DNA from: Symploca sp. SIO3C6 | Lineage (GTDB): Bacteria > Cyanobacteriota > Cyanobacteriia > Cyanobacteriales > Coleofasciculaceae | Direction of reading: 5' to 3' | Assembly (NCBI GenBank): GCA_010692425.1 | Contig: JAAHHJ010000005.1 | Coordinates: 62,001 to 126,000 of the forward strand | Length of the DNA: 64,000 bases | Shown here: positions 37,100 to 52,041 of the stretch, piece by piece | Numbering within the stretch: the stretch's first letter is position 1 | Layout: each line of letters opens with the position of its first letter | The notes under the pieces: generated by a model | The model's database searches: none | Told to the model about the DNA's origin: nothing | What the model saw: only the letters and a program-made list of their open reading frames with translations | Position numbers and translations under genes: made by a program

Positions 37100-37114
37100 T
37101 GATAATCATTATCA
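37100..37114. promoter_or_regulatory. Zur box before znuA
   Basis: TGATAATCATTATCA is a perfect 7-1-7 palindrome matching the cyanobacterial Zur operator pattern. It ends 18 bases before the znuA ATG, where a zinc-loaded repressor would block transcription or initiation. Confidence 0.85.
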
Positions 37115-43195: not shown

Positions 43196-43624
43196 TCAAA
43201 TTAACTCCGCTCTTGCTTGAGTAAGAACTTTTCCCGCAGATTGGGCAAAAACCACAGTGAGTAATAGCCCTAAAATGAAATCTGGCAAAAATGAGTTAGT
43301 TAGAAATACCAATCCAGCAGTTAGTAACACTGAAGTATTGGCAATAATGTCATTACGAGAACACAGCCAAACCGAAGACATATTAATATTGTCGTTACGG
43401 TGACGAATCAACAGTAAAAAGCAGATTAGGTTAGCAAGCAGAGCCAAAATACCAATCTCGCTCATCAAACCAACTGTGGGGACTGTTTGAGCAAATAGTT
43501 GATAGGTAGCTCTGGCAAATACAGCGATCGCCGATAGAAACATAATACTACCTTTGAGCATTGCCGATCGCGCCTGGGCTTTTTTGCCTTTTTGAATAAC
43601 GTAAAGGCTACAGCCATAGTACAA
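43196..43624 (-). pseudogene. 5'-truncated cation-efflux (CDF-like) transporter
   Basis: The 142-codon frame has GCSLYVIQKGKKAQARSAML, HRNDNINMSSVWLCSRNDI and SFLPDFILGLLLTVVF. These match the part after helix 2 of CzcD-like cation transporters. The first two helices, including the first metal-site motif, are missing, and an in-frame TAA lies a few codons before the only possible (TTG) start. It was probably a zinc or cobalt exporter and is probably dead. Loss of an exporter inside an uptake island is plausible but unproven. Confidence 0.6.
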
Positions 43625-43701: not shown

Positions 43702-44913
43702 TCACCCAATCGCCAAACTGGGTTTTACAATTGCTGGCACGATACATTGACACGCCATTTTGCCACCGCCAATATTTCTGGCAACAGGACCAATTTGCAA
43801 AGCACCCAAACCACCCATGATAAACAAGTTGGACTTGGACAGACGTAAATGTTTGTCTAGTATGGGTAAACCGTTAACTATTTCTGTGGGATAAGCCTCA
43901 AGTACGTCTTGTAACAAAGGATGCTCTTTGGCATTAAATTTCGTACCAGTAGCCAACCAAATACAGTTAAATTGATGTTTGCTTCCATTGTGACAATGAA
44001 CCTGCCAGAGATTTTCTTGCCACTGTGCGTCGCTGACTTGACAGCATTCATCGATCCTCACCTTACCTTGATGAGATGCTTTTCTTAATTGCAGCATCAT
44101 TTCGGGAGTTATCGAACCACCATTACGGGCTTGCTGTATTTGCTGGTAACGGGCAGACCAATCGGTTTCGGCGTGAAAGTCTTTGAGATATTTTGGCCCT
44201 AACCAACCAGGATCGGCATCAAAGATTTTTGACTGTAACTGTTTTCTAGTCATTAGGGTTACAGTTGCACCCAAATTTATTGCACCTTTGGCTAAATGTG
44301 CGCTAGTTAAACCACCACCAACGATTAAAATCTTTTCTCCTGTTAACTTAAGTTGGTTTAAATTTACCTGTTGAGAATGACATAATCTATCTGAGGGGTA
44401 ATTTGAGGTAATTTTTTCTACCCAATTGGGAAGCTGCACTTTACCACTTCCTGTAGCTAGTACCACTCTACGTGCAATAATAGTTTCTTCCGTATTTAAA
44501 ACTAATTGAAATCGAGAGCGAGAAACATGTTCAATCGGTAAAATCTGAATTACTTTAGCTGGATAAACCTTATCTGTTAACTTCCAGCGATGAATTACTT
44601 GATCACAGAAATCATTAAATAGCTTTGTTCCTGGTCTGTCATAAGGAGGAAATAACTCGTTATATCTATGTTCGGCAAAGGTTCTTAATTGATGGGGGTT
44701 GGGATCGGGATGATGAACAGCAGGCGATCGCAAATAGGGAATTTGTTGTGCTGCAAATTGTTGCTGCCATTGACTCAGCCAAGTCCGACTGGGATCGAAG
44801 ACTAGAAATTTATGATAGTGCTTCGCGCTTTTTTGTAACAGATGGGTGGTTAAAGTAAGAGCCTGAACTCCTGCACCAACAATCGCTAGGTCTATATAGT
44901 TAGGTAGCTTCAC
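43702..44913 (-). CDS. FAD/NAD(P)-binding oxidoreductase, Zur-box promoter
   Basis: A 403-residue flavoprotein. The N-terminal FAD motif is AIVGAGVQALTLT (about 11-23) and the second dinucleotide motif is ILIVGGGLTSAHLA (about 195-208). ATGSGKVQLP and LATGTKF are typical of two-dinucleotide-binding flavoproteins, in the broad style of N-hydroxylating or lysine-monooxygenase-like enzymes. The substrate is unknown. Zur-like palindromes lie 15-55 bases upstream, shared with the divergent hemB copy, so zinc starvation should induce it. A link to a metal-binding metabolite is speculation. Confidence 0.8.
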   Translation of the reverse strand: MKLPNYIDLAIVGAGVQALTLTTHLLQKSAKHYHKFLVFDPSRTWLSQWQQQFAAQQIPYLRSPAVHHPDPNPHQLRTFAEHRYNELFPPYDRPGTKLFNDFCDQVIHRWKLTDKVYPAKVIQILPIEHVSRSRFQLVLNTEETIIARRVVLATGSGKVQLPNWVEKITSNYPSDRLCHSQQVNLNQLKLTGEKILIVGGGLTSAHLAKGAINLGATVTLMTRKQLQSKIFDADPGWLGPKYLKDFHAETDWSARYQQIQQARNGGSITPEMMLQLRKASHQGKVRIDECCQVSDAQWQENLWQVHCHNGSKHQFNCIWLATGTKFNAKEHPLLQDVLEAYPTEIVNGLPILDKHLRLSKSNLFIMGGLGALQIGPVARNIGGGKMACQCIVPAIVKPSLAIG

Positions 44914-44927
44914 TCGCCAAAAATAAT

Positions 44928-44940
44928 AATAATGATTATC
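44928..44940. promoter_or_regulatory. Zur-like site A between FAD gene and hemB
   Basis: ATAATGATTAT is a palindrome around one central base, five bases per arm, resembling the core of the znuA Zur box. It is 15 bases from the FAD-gene start and may work with the stronger site next to it. Confidence 0.55.
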
Positions 44941-44951
44941 TTTATTACTAT

Positions 44952-44968
44952 ATAATAATGATTATTAT
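44952..44968. promoter_or_regulatory. Zur-like site B between FAD gene and hemB
   Basis: ATAATAATGATTATTAT is a perfect eight-base-arm palindrome around one central base. It sits in the 84-base divergent spacer, 30 bases before the hemB start, and could control both directions. Confidence 0.7.
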
Positions 44969-44997: not shown

Positions 44998-45509
44998 ATG
45001 ACTTCTCCTAATCAACATCTATCGTTATTCCATCGTCCTCGTCGCCTCCGTCGCACCGCATCCTTACGCCTTATGGTGCAGGAAAACCAATTGACAGTTG
45101 AAGGAGGCTCCAAGGCAGTCCCGATGAAAAATTTTTTTCATCATCAAGCATTAAAGAGGGTTATTTCCCCTACACCCTACACCCCACACCCTACACCCTC
45201 TTTCAAGTCAGGAGGCAGGAGGAATCTGCCTTCTTGCCTCCTGCCTTCGTTAACGATTTGATTTATCCCGTGTTTGTTATGGAAGGGAAAGATATACAAC
45301 AAGAGATTCCTTCGAGACCAGAAATTTATCGTTATTCTCTTGCTGCTTATAACGTCAGTGGCGAATATGCGATGGTTAAAGCTGCTGCCCAACAAGGATG
45401 GATTGATGAAAAGAAAGTAGTTTTGGAAACTCTTACCAGTATGAAATAGGCGGGGGCAGATTTAACTTTGACTTATTTTGCCAAACAAGTCGCTTTAATG
45501 TTGCGGTAA
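44998..45509 (+). pseudogene. hemB: hemB paralogue (5-aminolevulinate dehydratase), broken
   Basis: HemB joins two 5-aminolevulinates to porphobilinogen. The frame starts MTSPNQHLSLFHRPRRLRR and TASLRLMVQENQLTV, normal for HemB, then is cut by a 152-bp insertion (45100-45251). It resumes [14 protein letters not shown], jumps from IYRYSL straight to [20 protein letters not shown] (some 200 central residues lost), meets an in-frame TAG at 45447 and ends AGADLTLTYFAKQVA. The deleted part contained the active site. A Zur-like box precedes it, so it was probably a zinc-sparing copy. Confidence 0.85.
45100..45251. mobile_element. 152-bp miniature element inserted in hemB
   Basis: The HemB reading LTV|NDLIYP is interrupted exactly between GTT and AAC, and GTT appears at both edges, suggesting a 3-bp target duplication. 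The ends are partly inverted (GAAGGAGGC against GCCTCCTGCCTTC). Inside are the GATGAAAAATTTTTTTCATC palindrome and ACACCCTACACCCC repeats. Its length is not a multiple of three, so it also shifts the frame. A relative lies at 38139-38270. Confidence 0.75.
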
Positions 45510-45550: not shown

Positions 45551-46303
45551 ATGATTATTGCCGTATTCAGTCCTCCAGGCGCGGGGAAAACCCACTGGAT
45601 TAGCCAACAAATAGCCCAAACCAATAAACCTGTAGGTTATTTCAGTCCCCAAACCGATTCTCTACCCATTGATGCCATATATCTGCAAAGTGAATACCCT
45701 CAACTAAAGCTTTATTGGACGGGGGAAGAAGCTCAATTAAACAAAACCATTACTTATCTGGAGATTCCTTGGTATTTGGATTTAGCAGGAATTGAACCTT
45801 TACTGCAAACTTTTAACTCCCATCGAGTAGCCATAATTCCAGAGGATACAGATAGTACACAATTAAAGACTTGGGCGGATGAAATTATTCCAGGAGATGG
45901 CCTCACTAAACCAACTACAGCTTTACAGATTCATCGGGGAGTTTTGACGGGGGAAATCTTAGATTTTGACAGTCTGGCTACTTTTTGGCTGGAACTTACC
46001 CAAGGTGCTTATGGTGAAGTGATTCGGGCAAAGGGAATCTTCGATTTAGTGGATGGACAAATTTATTATGGTGACTTTAGATCTGGGGAGTTAGAATTAA
46101 AATTTAAACCCTTAAATTTGCCTCGTTGGTTAAATGGTAAACCCAATCGCAAGAGTGGTTTTGAAATAGTGGGTAGTAACTTAGACAAAACTGAAATTGC
46201 CCAAACCGTCCGAGATTGTTGTGTTCCCGAATCGGCAATTAATTATTACCAACAACAAGTAAAAGAGACTTTAGCAACCGAACCAGAGGTGGAGGTAGTA
46301 TGA
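45551..46303 (+). CDS. CobW-like P-loop protein without the CxCC motif
   Basis: A 250-residue protein. It starts with a P-loop-like SPPGAGKTHW (residues 7-16). Its C-terminal half (GAYGEVIRAKGIFDLVDG, then WLNGKPNRKSGFEIVGSNLD) resembles the CobW C-terminal domain. It lacks the GCxCC metal motif, the VNEFG loop and a clear NKxD, so it is not a standard COG0523 GTPase. Its stop overlaps the start of the next gene by four bases, so the two are coupled. The context suggests a metal-handling role; the reaction is unknown. Confidence 0.75.
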   Translation: MIIAVFSPPGAGKTHWISQQIAQTNKPVGYFSPQTDSLPIDAIYLQSEYPQLKLYWTGEEAQLNKTITYLEIPWYLDLAGIEPLLQTFNSHRVAIIPEDTDSTQLKTWADEIIPGDGLTKPTTALQIHRGVLTGEILDFDSLATFWLELTQGAYGEVIRAKGIFDLVDGQIYYGDFRSGELELKFKPLNLPRWLNGKPNRKSGFEIVGSNLDKTEIAQTVRDCCVPESAINYYQQQVKETLATEPEVEVV

Positions 46304-47115
46304 AAATAGCAGTAATGTCCTGTATCCATGGTAATTATGCAGCTTTAGATGCAGTTTTACTGGATATTGATCTACAAAAAGCCGAAAAGATTTATTGTCT
46401 TGGCGATCTAGTGGGTTATGGCCCCTATCCCAATGCGGTAGTCGAACAAATTCGTTCTTTAGATATTCCCACTGTACAGGGTTGTTGGGATGAAGATATT
46501 GTAGAAGGATTGAACGCCTGTGAATGTAGTTATCCGTCCCTGTTAGCGGAAAAAAGAGGTAAAATCGCCCACGAATGGACAAATAAACAGGTACACCCCG
46601 AAGTTCGGGAATATTTGGCACAACTACCCCATACCTATAAAGAAGATAATTTCTGTTTCGTACATGGTAGTCCTAATAGCAACCACGAATATTTGTTACC
46701 CGAAATGGATGCTTTTACTGCTTTAGAAAGAGTTCTCTCCAGCGATGCAGATATATTATTTTGCGGACATACCCACGTTCCCTATGTCCGCACCCTAGAT
46801 TCTGGACAATTACAGGTTAAAGTCTGTCAACCCAGTAGAAACGAACAACCTACTATTAGTTTTAATACTCCTGTAAAGCGAATTATCAATGTCGGTTCGG
46901 TAGGTGAACCCCGTCATGGTCGTCCAAATGCTACCTATGTTATCTATGACACGGAGACACAAGCAGTAACCTTGCGAGAAGTAGAGTATGACTATCAAAC
47001 AACCTGCGCTGCTATTTTAGATGCTGGTTTACCGCCGATTTTTGCTTGGCGTTTGGCTAGGGGTTTAGAATTTGCCGAAAAAGCCGACGATCCGACTCAT
47101 GTGTGTGAGAGGTAA
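46300..47115 (+). CDS. Metallophosphoesterase-like protein with altered ligands
   Basis: A 271-residue calcineurin-like phosphoesterase fold. Metal motif 1, normally SDIHGN, is SCIHGN (Cys8 for Asp). Motif 2 LGDLVGYG (Asp36) is intact. Motif 3, normally GNHD, is GCWDED (Cys62, Trp63). FVHGSP and CGHTHVP are normal. Thus two metal ligands are replaced by cysteine and tryptophan, which should change metal preference or activity. It overlaps the CobW-like gene upstream by four bases and is followed 33 bases later by a second, more degenerate relative. Substrate unknown. Confidence 0.85.
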   Translation: MKIAVMSCIHGNYAALDAVLLDIDLQKAEKIYCLGDLVGYGPYPNAVVEQIRSLDIPTVQGCWDEDIVEGLNACECSYPSLLAEKRGKIAHEWTNKQVHPEVREYLAQLPHTYKEDNFCFVHGSPNSNHEYLLPEMDAFTALERVLSSDADILFCGHTHVPYVRTLDSGQLQVKVCQPSRNEQPTISFNTPVKRIINVGSVGEPRHGRPNATYVIYDTETQAVTLREVEYDYQTTCAAILDAGLPPIFAWRLARGLEFAEKADDPTHVCER

Positions 47116-47148
47116 ATTAAATTACTTAAATATTTAGATTGAAAATCA

Positions 47149-47871
47149 ATGTGGGCAATTTTAAGCGGAATTGAAGGAAATATCGCAGCTTACGAAGCAG
47201 TATTGGCAGATATCAACCGCCAGCGCGTTAAGGCAGAAGAATTGTATATTTTGGGCGATATCGTAGCAGCTAACCTAGATAGCGAAAAAGTAATTAAACG
47301 AATTCAGAATCCTTTACCTGGAGAATTAGAACCCCAAGTATGCTTTGGCTGGTGGGAAGAACAATGCTTTGCTTTACACGGTGTGGGTTCCACAGCACAA
47401 CCCACAGAATTGATAGATCGCTTTGGTAAAAAAACCGCTAAACTACTTTGGGATTCTGTATCTCGTGAAACGGTACATTGGTTACGCAACTGTCATTTTG
47501 GCTTCTTTGAATTAGATTGTTTGTTAATTCACGGTAGCACTGTTAGTGTCAGTGATGAGTTAACCCCCGAAAAACCACCCTGGCAAATGCTAGACCGTTT
47601 GCAGAGAGTACAGGCAAATCATCTCTTTTGTGGTCGTTCAGGTCAAGTATTTGAATATCAACTACAAGGGGGTTCAGTAAATAGTTCTGTGGTGACTTTA
47701 GATCGCCAGCAACCTGTGCAAACTATTACTGCACCCAAAAGAAGAGTTGTTGGTGTAGGCAATGTAGGCAGGGAACCTGGAAAGGCTACTTATACTATTT
47801 ATAATCCATATAGTGATCGCCTAGAGTTTAAGACAGTTTACTATGGCAGCAAAAAAGGATTCGGTAATTAA
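47149..47871 (+). CDS. Degenerate metallophosphoesterase-like protein
   Basis: A 240-residue relative of the preceding gene. Motif 1 is SGIEGN (Asp and His both lost), motif 2 LGDIVAA keeps its Asp37, motif 3 is GWWEEQ, the HGS is kept (LIHGST), and the last motif is CGRSGQ instead of CGHTH. Metal binding and catalysis are therefore unlikely. It may be a regulatory partner that pairs with the upstream protein. ATG 47149 is used. The frame is intact over its whole length, so it is not a fresh pseudogene. Confidence 0.8.
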   Translation: MWAILSGIEGNIAAYEAVLADINRQRVKAEELYILGDIVAANLDSEKVIKRIQNPLPGELEPQVCFGWWEEQCFALHGVGSTAQPTELIDRFGKKTAKLLWDSVSRETVHWLRNCHFGFFELDCLLIHGSTVSVSDELTPEKPPWQMLDRLQRVQANHLFCGRSGQVFEYQLQGGSVNSSVVTLDRQQPVQTITAPKRRVVGVGNVGREPGKATYTIYNPYSDRLEFKTVYYGSKKGFGN

Positions 47872-48708: not shown

Positions 48709-49228
48709 CTAAGTCTCGGTCAATCTGGGAATCAACTGGGCTAAATTACAAAGACGATGGCGGGAATCAAGTTGATCTTTAATAACACTCCATCCTGTTT
48801 GACAAGCACCACTAGAACCAGGCAAACAAAAGATATAAGTACCTTTAGCCACACCAGCCAAAGTCCGAGATTGAATAGTAGAGGTTTTAATTTCTTGATA
48901 GGAAATCATCCGAAATATTTCGCCAAAACCTTCGATTTTATTGTCCAATAGTGGCTTAATAGCTTCTGGAGTGCCATCTCGTCCTGTAACTCCCGTACCG
49001 CCAGTGGTTATAATTACTTGGACAGATTCATCTGCCACCCATCTGGATATTACGGCACGAATTTGGTAAATATTATCGGGAACAATGTTTTTTTTCTGCT
49101 AGGGAATGTCCTGTTGAGGTTAAGTTATCCACCAATATTTTGCCCGATTTATCATCAGCTTCGGTTCGCGTGTCGGAAACTGTCAGCACGGCAATTTTTA
49201 GAGGTAGTAAAGATTCATTTTGGTTCAT
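48709..49228 (-). CDS. moaB: MoaB molybdenum-cofactor protein, interrupted by a frameshift in an A8 run
   Basis: MoaB/MogA-family protein of molybdopterin synthesis. From ATG 49228 one frame reads [20 protein letters not shown] to SLAEKK. At an A8 run (T8 at 49088-49095 on the plus strand) it leaves frame, and the -1-corrected frame continues [20 protein letters not shown], then [20 protein letters not shown] to the stop at 48709. Removing one A gives a normal 172-residue protein. The shift could be a sequencing error, a recent mutation or transcriptional slippage. Confidence 0.8.
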
Positions 49229-50132: not shown

Positions 50133-52007
50133 CTAAATCTTAGTTTTATTAGCTATAACCTCTTCCAAACTCTCTTTCAACTCTGTTATATTCATCGTCC
50201 CAATATCTCCTTGTTGGCGAGTACGAATACTCAAAGTCTGGGTTTCAACTTCCCGCTTACCAACTACTGCTACTACGGGAATCTTTTCTAACTCGGCATT
50301 ACGTATTTGTTTGCCCAAACGTTCCTCTGTACAGTCTATTTCTACCCGATAACCAGCTTGTTTGAGCGTCGCAGCAACAGCTTCTCCATATTCTCTTTGT
50401 GCTTCACTCACGGGTAGCAAGCGTACCTGTATCGGTGCTAGCCACAAGGGAAAATCTCCTGCATAGTTTTCGATTAAAATTCCGTAAAAACGCTCTAAAG
50501 AGCCAAAAATTGCCCGATGAACCATAATCGGACGTTGACGAAAACCATCGGCTGCGACATATTCCATGTCAAAGCGTTCTGGTAAGTTAAAATCTACCTG
50601 GATAGTGGAACATTGCCAAGTACGTCCAATGGCATCCTTAATTTTGATATCGATCTTTGGACCATAGAAAGCACCACCACCCTTATCTTCGATGTAATCC
50701 CAACCTTTGGTATTTAAAGCTTCTACTAAAGCCTGAGTTGCCAACTCCCAACCTTCATCCGTACCGACTGACTTATCTGGGCGAGTAGAAAGATTGACCT
50801 CGTAGTCTTTAAAACCAAAATCAGAAAGAATCTTTTCCGTTAAATTCAGTACACCGAGAATTTCCCCTGCAATTTGGGTGGGCAAACAGAAAATATGAGC
50901 ATCATCTTGAGTAAAACCCCGCACCCGCATCAAACCATGTAGAGCGCCAGAACGTTCGTAGCGATATACTGTACCTAATTCCGCCCAACGCAAAGGTAAT
51001 TCTCGATAGGAATGGAGGTCATTTTTATAAGTTAAGACGTGAAAGGGACAGTTCATCGGCTTGATTTGATAAGCCTGTTGCTCGATATCCATCGAATCGA
51101 ACATATTTTCGCGATAAAAGTCAAAATGACCCGATGTTTTCCACAATTCTAAGTTGGCAACGTGGGGAGTATAGAGGAGTTCGTAACCTGCTTCTATATG
51201 TGCCTTACGCCAATAATCTTCGATGATGTAGCGCATAGTTGCACCGCGAGGATGCCAGAATACTAAACCACCACCTGCATCTTCTTGAATGCTAAACAGT
51301 TTTAACTCTTTCCCCAGTTTGCGATGATCTCTACGCTTGGCTTCTTCCTGTTGTTGTAAATAAGCTTCTAACTGTTCGGGAGTTTCCCAAGCTGTACCAT
51401 AGATGCGTTGTAGTTGGGCTTTAGTTTCATCTCCCCGCCAATATGCCCCAGCTACGCTTTCTAAGGCAAAAGCATTAGGGTTAATCTCTCCTGTATAGTT
51501 AACATGAGGTCCGGCACACAAATCCCACCAAGATACAGTAGCAGGAATTTTCATTGGTTTAATCAAAGAAGGTTCTGGTAAAGCAGCTTTTAGTTTTTCT
51601 CCTACATCGGACAATCTACCGCCGTCGGGACTCCCAATGTAGTAACGGGTAATGGTTTCTCCTTCGGGAATGCTATCTAAAATTTCTAGTTTGTAAGGTT
51701 CGCCTAGCTGTTCGATTTCCGCTTTAATTTCTTCCCTAGTTACCTCTTCTCGAATAATCGGCAAGTTATCCTTAATAATAGAGCGTATTTGCTTGGTTAT
51801 TTTGCTTAAGTCTTCAGGAGTAAAAGGTTGCGCGCGATCGAAATCGTAATAAAAACCCGTATCTGTAGTCGGTCCAATGGTAACTTTTGTCTCTGGAAAT
51901 AACATTTGTACTGCCATCGCCATGATATGGGCGCAAGTATGGCGAATACGCTCTAATCTTTCTGGATTGGCAATTTGTGAGGGAGACTGGGTTAACTGAC
52001 TGACCAT
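50133..52007 (-). CDS. thrS: Threonyl-tRNA synthetase, Zur-linked copy
   Basis: Charges tRNA-Thr with threonine. The 624-residue protein lacks the N-terminal TGS domain. It keeps the editing domain with HTCAH (HxxxH) and CAGPH, then the class II core. The three zinc ligands are all present (MNCPFH, QDDAHIFC, IMVHRAIFG), followed by the anticodon-binding domain. Paralogous ThrRS genes belong to zinc-starvation regulons in some cyanobacteria. Because the zinc site is intact, this copy would help by abundance or affinity, not by zinc independence. Whether it is the only thrS in the genome cannot be seen here. A Zur-like box lies 15 bases upstream. Confidence 0.95.
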   Translation of the reverse strand: MVSQLTQSPSQIANPERLERIRHTCAHIMAMAVQMLFPETKVTIGPTTDTGFYYDFDRAQPFTPEDLSKITKQIRSIIKDNLPIIREEVTREEIKAEIEQLGEPYKLEILDSIPEGETITRYYIGSPDGGRLSDVGEKLKAALPEPSLIKPMKIPATVSWWDLCAGPHVNYTGEINPNAFALESVAGAYWRGDETKAQLQRIYGTAWETPEQLEAYLQQQEEAKRRDHRKLGKELKLFSIQEDAGGGLVFWHPRGATMRYIIEDYWRKAHIEAGYELLYTPHVANLELWKTSGHFDFYRENMFDSMDIEQQAYQIKPMNCPFHVLTYKNDLHSYRELPLRWAELGTVYRYERSGALHGLMRVRGFTQDDAHIFCLPTQIAGEILGVLNLTEKILSDFGFKDYEVNLSTRPDKSVGTDEGWELATQALVEALNTKGWDYIEDKGGGAFYGPKIDIKIKDAIGRTWQCSTIQVDFNLPERFDMEYVAADGFRQRPIMVHRAIFGSLERFYGILIENYAGDFPLWLAPIQVRLLPVSEAQREYGEAVAATLKQAGYRVEIDCTEERLGKQIRNAELEKIPVVAVVGKREVETQTLSIRTRQQGDIGTMNITELKESLEEVIANKTKI

Positions 52008-52021
52008 TGATGAATTATTCT

Positions 52022-52041
52022 AATGATAATCGTTATTATGA
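52022..52041. promoter_or_regulatory. Zur box in the thrS-hisI divergent spacer
   Basis: ATGATAA (52023-52029) and TTATTAT (52033-52039) are near-perfect inverted half-sites. They lie in the 77-base spacer between thrS and the divergent hisI, close to both starts. Confidence 0.7.

Follow-up and report, generated by a model that had tools for sequence, protein, structure and literature searches.

Three adjoining genes in a 64,000-nucleotide stretch of DNA from Symploca sp. SIO3C6 (contig JAAHHJ010000005.1; hereafter the window) raise the question of why a CobW-like protein should be coupled to two metallophosphoesterase (MPE) homologues whose metal ligands have been replaced or lost. The genes, here called gene 1, gene 2 and gene 3, had been described as running in one direction with the first two overlapping by four bases, and the coordinates of the open reading frames (ORFs), all on the + strand, agree (Table 1). 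There is strong evidence that the trio is one co-inherited, probably co-regulated module, and the best reading of its function, which we hold tentatively, is that of a split metallochaperone, i.e., a zinc-handling trio under the control of Zur.

Gene 2 is a member of Metallophos_2 (PF12850; 76.2 bits) in which the motifs SCIHGN and GCWDED stand where SDIHGN and GNHD are usual. Alignment with other MPEs places residues 62 and 63 at the Asn and His of GNHD; in ordinary MPEs this Asn is a metal-ligand position and this His the usual catalytic residue. The claim that Cys8 and Cys62 take the place of two metal ligands held across 135 orthologues (125 of them distinct): of the full MPE ligand set (D-x-H, GD, GNH[DE], H, GHxH), D8 is replaced by Cys in 132, N62 by Cys and H63 by Trp in all 135, the remaining ligands being retained. 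The residues H10, D36, C62, W63, D64, C74, C76, H122, C155, H157, H159, H267 and C269 are invariant in all 135. Since the normal residue at position 8 is Asp, C8 appears to occupy a working metal position; the three exceptions, all metagenome-assembled genomes (MAGs) of Crocosphaera (L141, L142, L205), have the canonical Asp8, yet retain C62, C74 and C76. The predicted model (pLDDT 77.7 overall, below 50 in the loop 67–80) has an MPE fold, the closest matches being 3rqz (Z 25.4 over 210 residues, 3.0 Å), SapH (3qfm), PH1004 (2gju) and 1nnw, with Z between 24.1 and 25.4. Gene 2 shares its overall fold with these calcineurin-like MPEs and differs from them in its replaced ligands, its CxC loop and a Cys-containing C-terminal tail. 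Its dinuclear site would thus have gained Cys at positions 8 and 62, a Trp for the catalytic His and a CxC pair past motif III, and gene 2 probably binds a metal (zinc is the likeliest) through mixed Cys/His/Asp ligands rather than working as a standard phosphatase.

Gene 1 had been credited with a P-loop and a CobW C-terminal half lacking CxCC, and this description was borne out by the family. Among 120 distinct gene 1 sequences (frames below 200 amino acids from later loci and PCC 7002 being excluded, as for the 114 distinct gene 3 sequences below), a loose P-loop pattern is found in 118 and a strict one in 103, the window version reading FSPPGAGKTH; CxCC is found in none. Of 27 family members searched at E ≤ 0.01, 24 match CobW_C (PF07683) and one matches PF02492; the window gene 1 itself scores 19.1 bits for CobW_C, below the Pfam cut-off of 22, and hhalign recovers the CobW C-terminal domain with E 1.3e-6. 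No guanine-specificity motif was found in the NTPase domain of the 120 sequences, the single NKxD-like motif lying inside a C-terminal domain. A Foldseek search with the predicted model (pLDDT 91.1) returned three chains below E 0.001, every one of them YjiA; residues 120–225 match the YjiA C-terminal domain (219–318) with Z 10.2 over 99 residues at 3.9 Å, and residues 1–117 resemble SRP/FtsY-type NTPases (Z 11.1). Gene 1 resembles COG0523/CobW proteins (YjiA, YciC/ZagA) in its layout, a CobW C-terminal domain behind a P-loop domain, and in its zinc-regulon context; it differs from them in the absence of CxCC, in its short NTPase domain (~117 amino acids) and in a poor overall superposition on YjiA. 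It may be a pared-down COG0523-like NTPase in which the CxCC metal switch of the family has been lost.

Gene 3 is paralogous to gene 2, as evidenced by an hhalign comparison of the two family alignments (E 1.1e-32), and has indeed shed most of the ligands that it was said to have lost. The motif I DxH, a GN[HYWT]D-type motif III and GHxH are each absent from all 114 distinct sequences; GD is retained in 112, and the motif IV His, within [IVAL]HG, in 113. None of 27 members matched a Pfam family at E ≤ 0.01, and the window gene 3 has no MPE match in Pfam. We picture it as a ligand-poor paralogue that is probably a structural partner of gene 2.

The view that the frames are intact and their changes selected is supported by purifying selection on all three genes (dN/dS 0.06–0.23 in 15 pairwise comparisons with five relatives); with 135 conserved orthologues at hand, chance or sequencing error was rejected as a source of the unusual residues. 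A survey of 57 related genomes (orthologue scores 450–635 bits for gene 2 and 256–554 for gene 3) found all three genes in 32, neither genes 1 and 3 nor a gene 2 orthologue in 24, and a remnant in one. Gene 3 occurs in the same 32 genomes as gene 2, and gene 1 in those plus G035; 12 further genomes, G035 included, give no more than weak gene 2 matches. In G035 (L132) a gene 1-derived frame continues into a stretch resembling gene 2, the fused remains of a trio that has decayed. Genomes of the same genus differ by the whole set, G006 having all three genes and G014 none (likewise G020/G051 and G054/G026), and therefore the three genes come and go together.

Beyond these relatives, a gene 2 profile search of 386 genomes of the phylum gave scores of at least 421 bits in 90 by our count, 25 of them small genomes (1.6–2.9 Mb) of family f41, which we take to be picocyanobacteria; in one of the 90 (G240) the match spans residues 41–271 and contains an internal stop. 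In a scan of named genomes, the best 80 of 589 places matching gene 2 all carry cyanobacterial titles. Among 124 distinct loci of gene 2, 121 have gene 1 on the same strand (it is adjacent in 117, and 88 of the 121 show precisely the 4-base overlap); gene 3 shares the strand in 114 and lies within 400 bases in 94; and all three genes are on one strand in 111. In Picosynechococcus PCC 7117 and PCC 73109 a complete trio is carried by a plasmid, and Trichormus variabilis ATCC 29413 has the trio as well. Gene 1 is missing at three loci, two of which are cut by a contig end, and gene 3 at 10 within the DNA stretch examined. The locus sets used here (118, 124 and 135) overlap, are kin by descent and mix public genomes, MAGs and other genomes; identical gene 2 sequences were merged in the 118 and 124 sets and left unmerged in the 135 set, and the 118 set excludes loci without gene 1 or with a gene 1 frame below 200 amino acids. 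Neither ordinary motifs in the homologues nor a want of linkage, both of which we looked for, was found: the Cys replacements are conserved and the trio shares one strand in 111 of 124 loci. For the small f41 genomes, 11 of 25 loci were checked for neighbours. The trio is present in 11 of 11, its genes spaced by −7 to 10 bases except at L229, where gene 3 is found at a distance of 7,372 bases; among the other neighbour families the most frequent reaches 4 of 11, so there are no common neighbours. In the nearest relative, an OrfB/IS605-type transposase gene lies between genes 2 and 3 (L098, 9923–11143).

Evidence for a zinc context comes from neighbours and from boxes. Among 34 contexts the top neighbour clusters were CobW and the FAD/NAD(P) oxidoreductase (15 each), GTP cyclohydrolase I FolE (14), HemB (12) and ZnuA (11), the representatives of the FolE and HemB clusters being confirmed. 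Over the 124 loci, with bit-score thresholds of our choosing, no background rate behind the counts and many of the DNA stretches short, CobW and the oxidoreductase were each found near 48, HemB near 42 and FolE near 34; at least one of FolE, HemB, ZnuA, ZnuB, ThrS and CobW lies near 76. The sequence TGATAATNATTATCA, which we take to be the consensus of the Zur-type box, occurs at ≤2 mismatches and ≤200 bp from gene 1 in 58 of 118 loci, versus 183 of 1428 control ORFs; the controls take in Zur-regulated neighbours and spurious ORFs as well as gene 1 itself, and hence overstate the background. A variant, TGAGAATNATTCTCR (≤1 mismatch), was followed in 10 f41 genomes, where it has two to eight distinct places per genome (37 by hand count) and stands upstream of gene 1 in nine of the ten, 27 to 147 bases away. 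Among the 21 places that were turned into loci, nine lie before gene 1, one before the separated gene 3 of L229, three between znuA and znuC, one before a CobW gene and seven elsewhere; the reversed control pattern has no match in nine of the ten genomes and three in G299. A box (≤2 mismatches) also precedes gene 3 at 6 of 22 loci where it is separated and at 0 of 93 where it is adjacent; four of the six share one box and probably represent one event. The boxes and gene neighbourhoods of the trio are those of the cyanobacterial Zur regulon (znuABC, hemB2, folE2, thrS2, cobW); the difference is that the excerpts of the literature examined do not list genes 2 and 3 among the targets.

Published data on Synechococcus PCC 7002 bear directly on this point (papers cited by PMC number are drawn on in excerpt). 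Its plasmid pAQ7 carries, in this order, hemB, folE, three short hypothetical genes and a gene for an FAD/NAD(P)-binding protein (the FAD gene). The hypothetical gene beside the latter is a truncated gene 1 of 165 amino acids (99% identity over residues 1–147 of 269), and a perfect box, TGATAATAATTATCA, lies between the two. A deletion in this plasmid (L244) seems to have run from the end of gene 1 through the whole of gene 2 into the start of gene 3. Mutation of zur and treatment with TPEN raise hemB-II, folE-II, G0131 (GTPase-like) and G0132 (an FAD-dependent oxidoreductase) (PMC4628125). By gene order we take G0131 to be the truncated gene 1 and G0129 to be what is left of gene 3, which would make the truncated gene 1 a published Zur target; the FAD gene, in a position equivalent to that of the oxidoreductase in the window, is one as well (PMC4628125). 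Zur-type boxes, zinc-regulon neighbours and the zur-mutant transcriptome, including the truncated gene 1 as placed by gene order, together support the original prediction of a metal-responsive module.

How Zur-regulated COG0523 proteins help under zinc starvation is said to be still unclear (PMC6103462). In a split metallochaperone, Zur would repress the trio when zinc is plentiful and release it at zinc shortage; the thiolates absent from the gene 1 NTPase would be supplied by the gene 2 MPE; and binding or hydrolysis of NTP by gene 1 may power loading or release toward client proteins when zinc runs short. This reading agrees with the loss of the switch in gene 1, the gain of thiolates together with the loss of the catalytic His in gene 2, the pseudo-enzyme character of gene 3 and the zinc context; we infer that intact trios are controlled by Zur and that their products bind metal, form a complex and act as a chaperone. 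The fuller picture, in which the trio forms a three-part Zur-controlled metal-trafficking complex of a switchless CobW-like NTPase, a thiolate-site phosphoesterase fold and a pseudo-phosphoesterase scaffold, kept in streamlined small genomes, is more doubtful. With a CobW-like NTPase, two fixed partners and cysteines that are conserved across distant cyanobacteria, the partner, the metal and the client are all open to test.

Several findings weigh against a Zur-controlled zinc chaperone. The superposition of the gene 1 model on whole YjiA is poor (TM 0.34), and C74 and C76 sit within the unreliable loop 67–80, so that the model lends no support to their nearness to the metal site. At 48 of the 124 loci no zinc-regulon gene was found, many of the examined stretches being short, and the consensus TGATAATNATTATCA by itself cannot separate Zur from Fur. 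Gene order and content are not inviolate: in G040 (L122) gene 1 is partial and looks broken and the order is changed, genes 2 and 3 persisting, and at L234, uncut by a contig end, genes 2 and 3 occur without gene 1. PCC 7002 lives without an intact trio, having no match to gene 2 and only a 133-amino-acid frame corresponding to the C-terminal part of gene 3; G0129 ("phosphoesterase") and G0130 show no rise in its zur mutant (PMC4628125). The apparent deletion, with fragments remaining on pAQ7, may explain these two non-responding genes inside a Zur-controlled cluster, which were remarked upon in that study (PMC4628125). The Zur regulon of WH8102 comprises eight genes, three of them uncharacterised, with no phosphoesterase named in the excerpts of the report (PMC9337993), and excerpts of four papers (PMC6103462, PMC10957091, PMC2770081, PMC9337993) mention no Zur-linked phosphoesterase of the gene 2 or gene 3 kind. 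Two Nodularia MPEs with neighbouring tags, whose identity with genes 2 and 3 is unconfirmed, appear simply as phosphatases (PMC3610870). Within the open-licence literature, a scope that leaves the main Anabaena Zur study outside, we found no paper joining cyanobacterial Zur or CobW (COG0523) with an MPE, and to that extent the module is undescribed, as had been supposed.

A further point on that side, the CxC shared with MPEs of ars operons, favours redox or metalloid chemistry. The best non-cyanobacterial matches to gene 2 among plasmid records are Bacteroidota MPEs at about 33–36% identity; the three that were read with annotation lie in ars operons, as do further relatives in Paraclostridium, Rubrobacter (two) and Flammeovirga. 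Six of these seven ars MPEs have GNYD together with C-x-C, whereas that of Flammeovirga has GNHD and no C-x-C, as do the second members of the two Bacteroidota pairs; C-x-C is likewise absent from four Halobacteria/Proteobacteria rows and from three same-phylum rows outside the class. C74 and C76 of gene 2 (135/135) align with this C-x-C. For Car1, an MPE of Rufibacter tibetensis, arsenate reductase activity that depends on Cys74 and Cys76 has been reported (PMC12124457). Given that alignment, a redox role is a serious rival: gene 2 could be a Car1-like MPE oxidoreductase that reduces an oxyanion or disulfide through C74-x-C76 (with C62 and C8); a thiol system or the divergent FAD/NAD(P) oxidoreductase would supply the electrons, and the activity would be needed because zinc limitation alters thiol and metal chemistry. 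The presence of that oxidoreductase family near 48 of 124 loci, and its PCC 7002 member being a published Zur target (PMC4628125), are in keeping with such a role, as is the resemblance to Car1-type proteins in the C-x-C past motif III and in the replacement of the motif III His by an aromatic residue (GNYD in six ars MPEs, GCWD in gene 2). The differences are that gene 2 has Cys in place of Asp8 and Asn62, metal-site residues that are retained in the compared ars MPEs, a Zur-type rather than an ars context and a CobW-like partner, and that the tree sets the ars rows apart from it. Annotation shows no ars gene in three complete trio contexts (L219, L220, L243), and gene 1 and the zinc neighbours are left unexplained. 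On balance we regard the redox role as less likely than not, though close behind the zinc chaperone. The trio would also add a second setting, zinc beside arsenic, for CxC-bearing MPE folds.

Tandem MPE pairs, one member with CxC and one without, also occur in Bacteroidota ars operons (L221, L248), and a similar pair in Mucilaginibacter gossypii P3 has been noted as uncharacterised (PMC10652896). A single duplication behind both genes 2/3 and the Bacteroidota pair is unsupported by the tree, in which the second ars MPEs join that of Flammeovirga among the Bacteroidota ars rows (95/83, 85/84); gene 3 forms one clade (100/100), and gene 2 needs two changes and its clade is unsupported, several long rows being unsure.

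It is improbable that gene 2 is a phosphoesterase of the ordinary kind whose metal preference has shifted and which, acting for example on a dinucleotide substrate, is used at zinc scarcity. Its fold is near that of SapH, an Ap4A hydrolase (Z 24.2), and H10, D36, H122, H157 and H159 are retained in 135/135, but the motif III His is Trp in every one of the same sequences, and gene 2 gains Cys, whereas zinc-sparing paralogues usually lose Cys ligands. For the latter reason a zinc-sparing paralogue in the style of hemB2 was rejected as well.

That the boxes are Fur boxes and that the cysteines hold iron or an Fe-S cluster is very improbable, even though TGATAATNATTATCA is near the general Fur-family box: the neighbours are zinc-regulon genes. 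The PCC 7002 genes at the place of the trio are, moreover, among those listed for the zur mutant, and TPEN raises them (PMC4628125).

Table 1. Features of the window around the trio (MPE, metallophosphoesterase; positions count from the first letter of the window).
Feature	Position	Strand	Product or remark
Gene 1	45551..46303	+	250 amino acid ORF; minimal P-loop NTPase-like domain (~1–117) and CobW/YjiA-type C-terminal domain (~120–225), without CxCC
Gene 2	46300..47115	+	271 amino acid ORF; MPE with active-site C8, C62 and W63 and invariant C74-x-C76
Gene 3	47149..47871	+	240 amino acid ORF; gene 2 paralogue, most metal ligands lost (pseudo-MPE)
Zur-type box TAATAATGATTATCT	44927..44941	+	2 mismatches to TGATAATNATTATCA; between divergent oxidoreductase and hemB remnant
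Second Zur-type box TAATAATGATTATTA	44953..44967	+	2 mismatches
Perfect box TGATAATCATTATCA	37100..37114	+	Upstream of znuA, same zinc gene cluster
Zur-type box	52024..52038	+	2 mismatches; just upstream of thrS start
thrS	50133..52007	-	
FAD/NAD(P)-binding oxidoreductase	43702..44913	-	Divergent from boxes at 44927 and 44953
Broken hemB (ALAD) remnant	44998..45506	+	Pieces 44998–45099, 45249–45341, 45339–45506

The window itself holds a zinc gene cluster comprising znuA (PF01297), an ABC ATPase, an ABC-3 permease, a canonical CobW and thrS. A scan of the whole window with TGATAATNATTATCA gave 16 matches at ≤3 mismatches versus 4.67 expected, several of them overlapping at the two boxes in front of the hemB remnant. 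The trio had been placed behind a Zur-boxed hemB; both boxes stand, and the hemB proves to be a pseudogene remnant, with an internal TAG in its third piece and the middle part of the protein missing. Intact HemB is encoded at the corresponding place in L102 and L106. An active hemB operon in the window was rejected on account of this remnant state; the one full-length hemB found lies on C168. A second hemB fragment occurs on the same contig as the window (L260; G000:C235:179492-179671), near another CobW gene (C235:179800). Two short ORFs on the - strand complete the picture: one of 142 amino acids at 43196–43624 covers only positions 70–197 of 198 in the cation efflux (CDF) profile and looks like a truncated transporter, and one of 109 amino acids at 48709–49038 covers positions 55–140 of 144 in the MoCF_biosynth (molybdopterin-binding) profile and is possibly a fragment.

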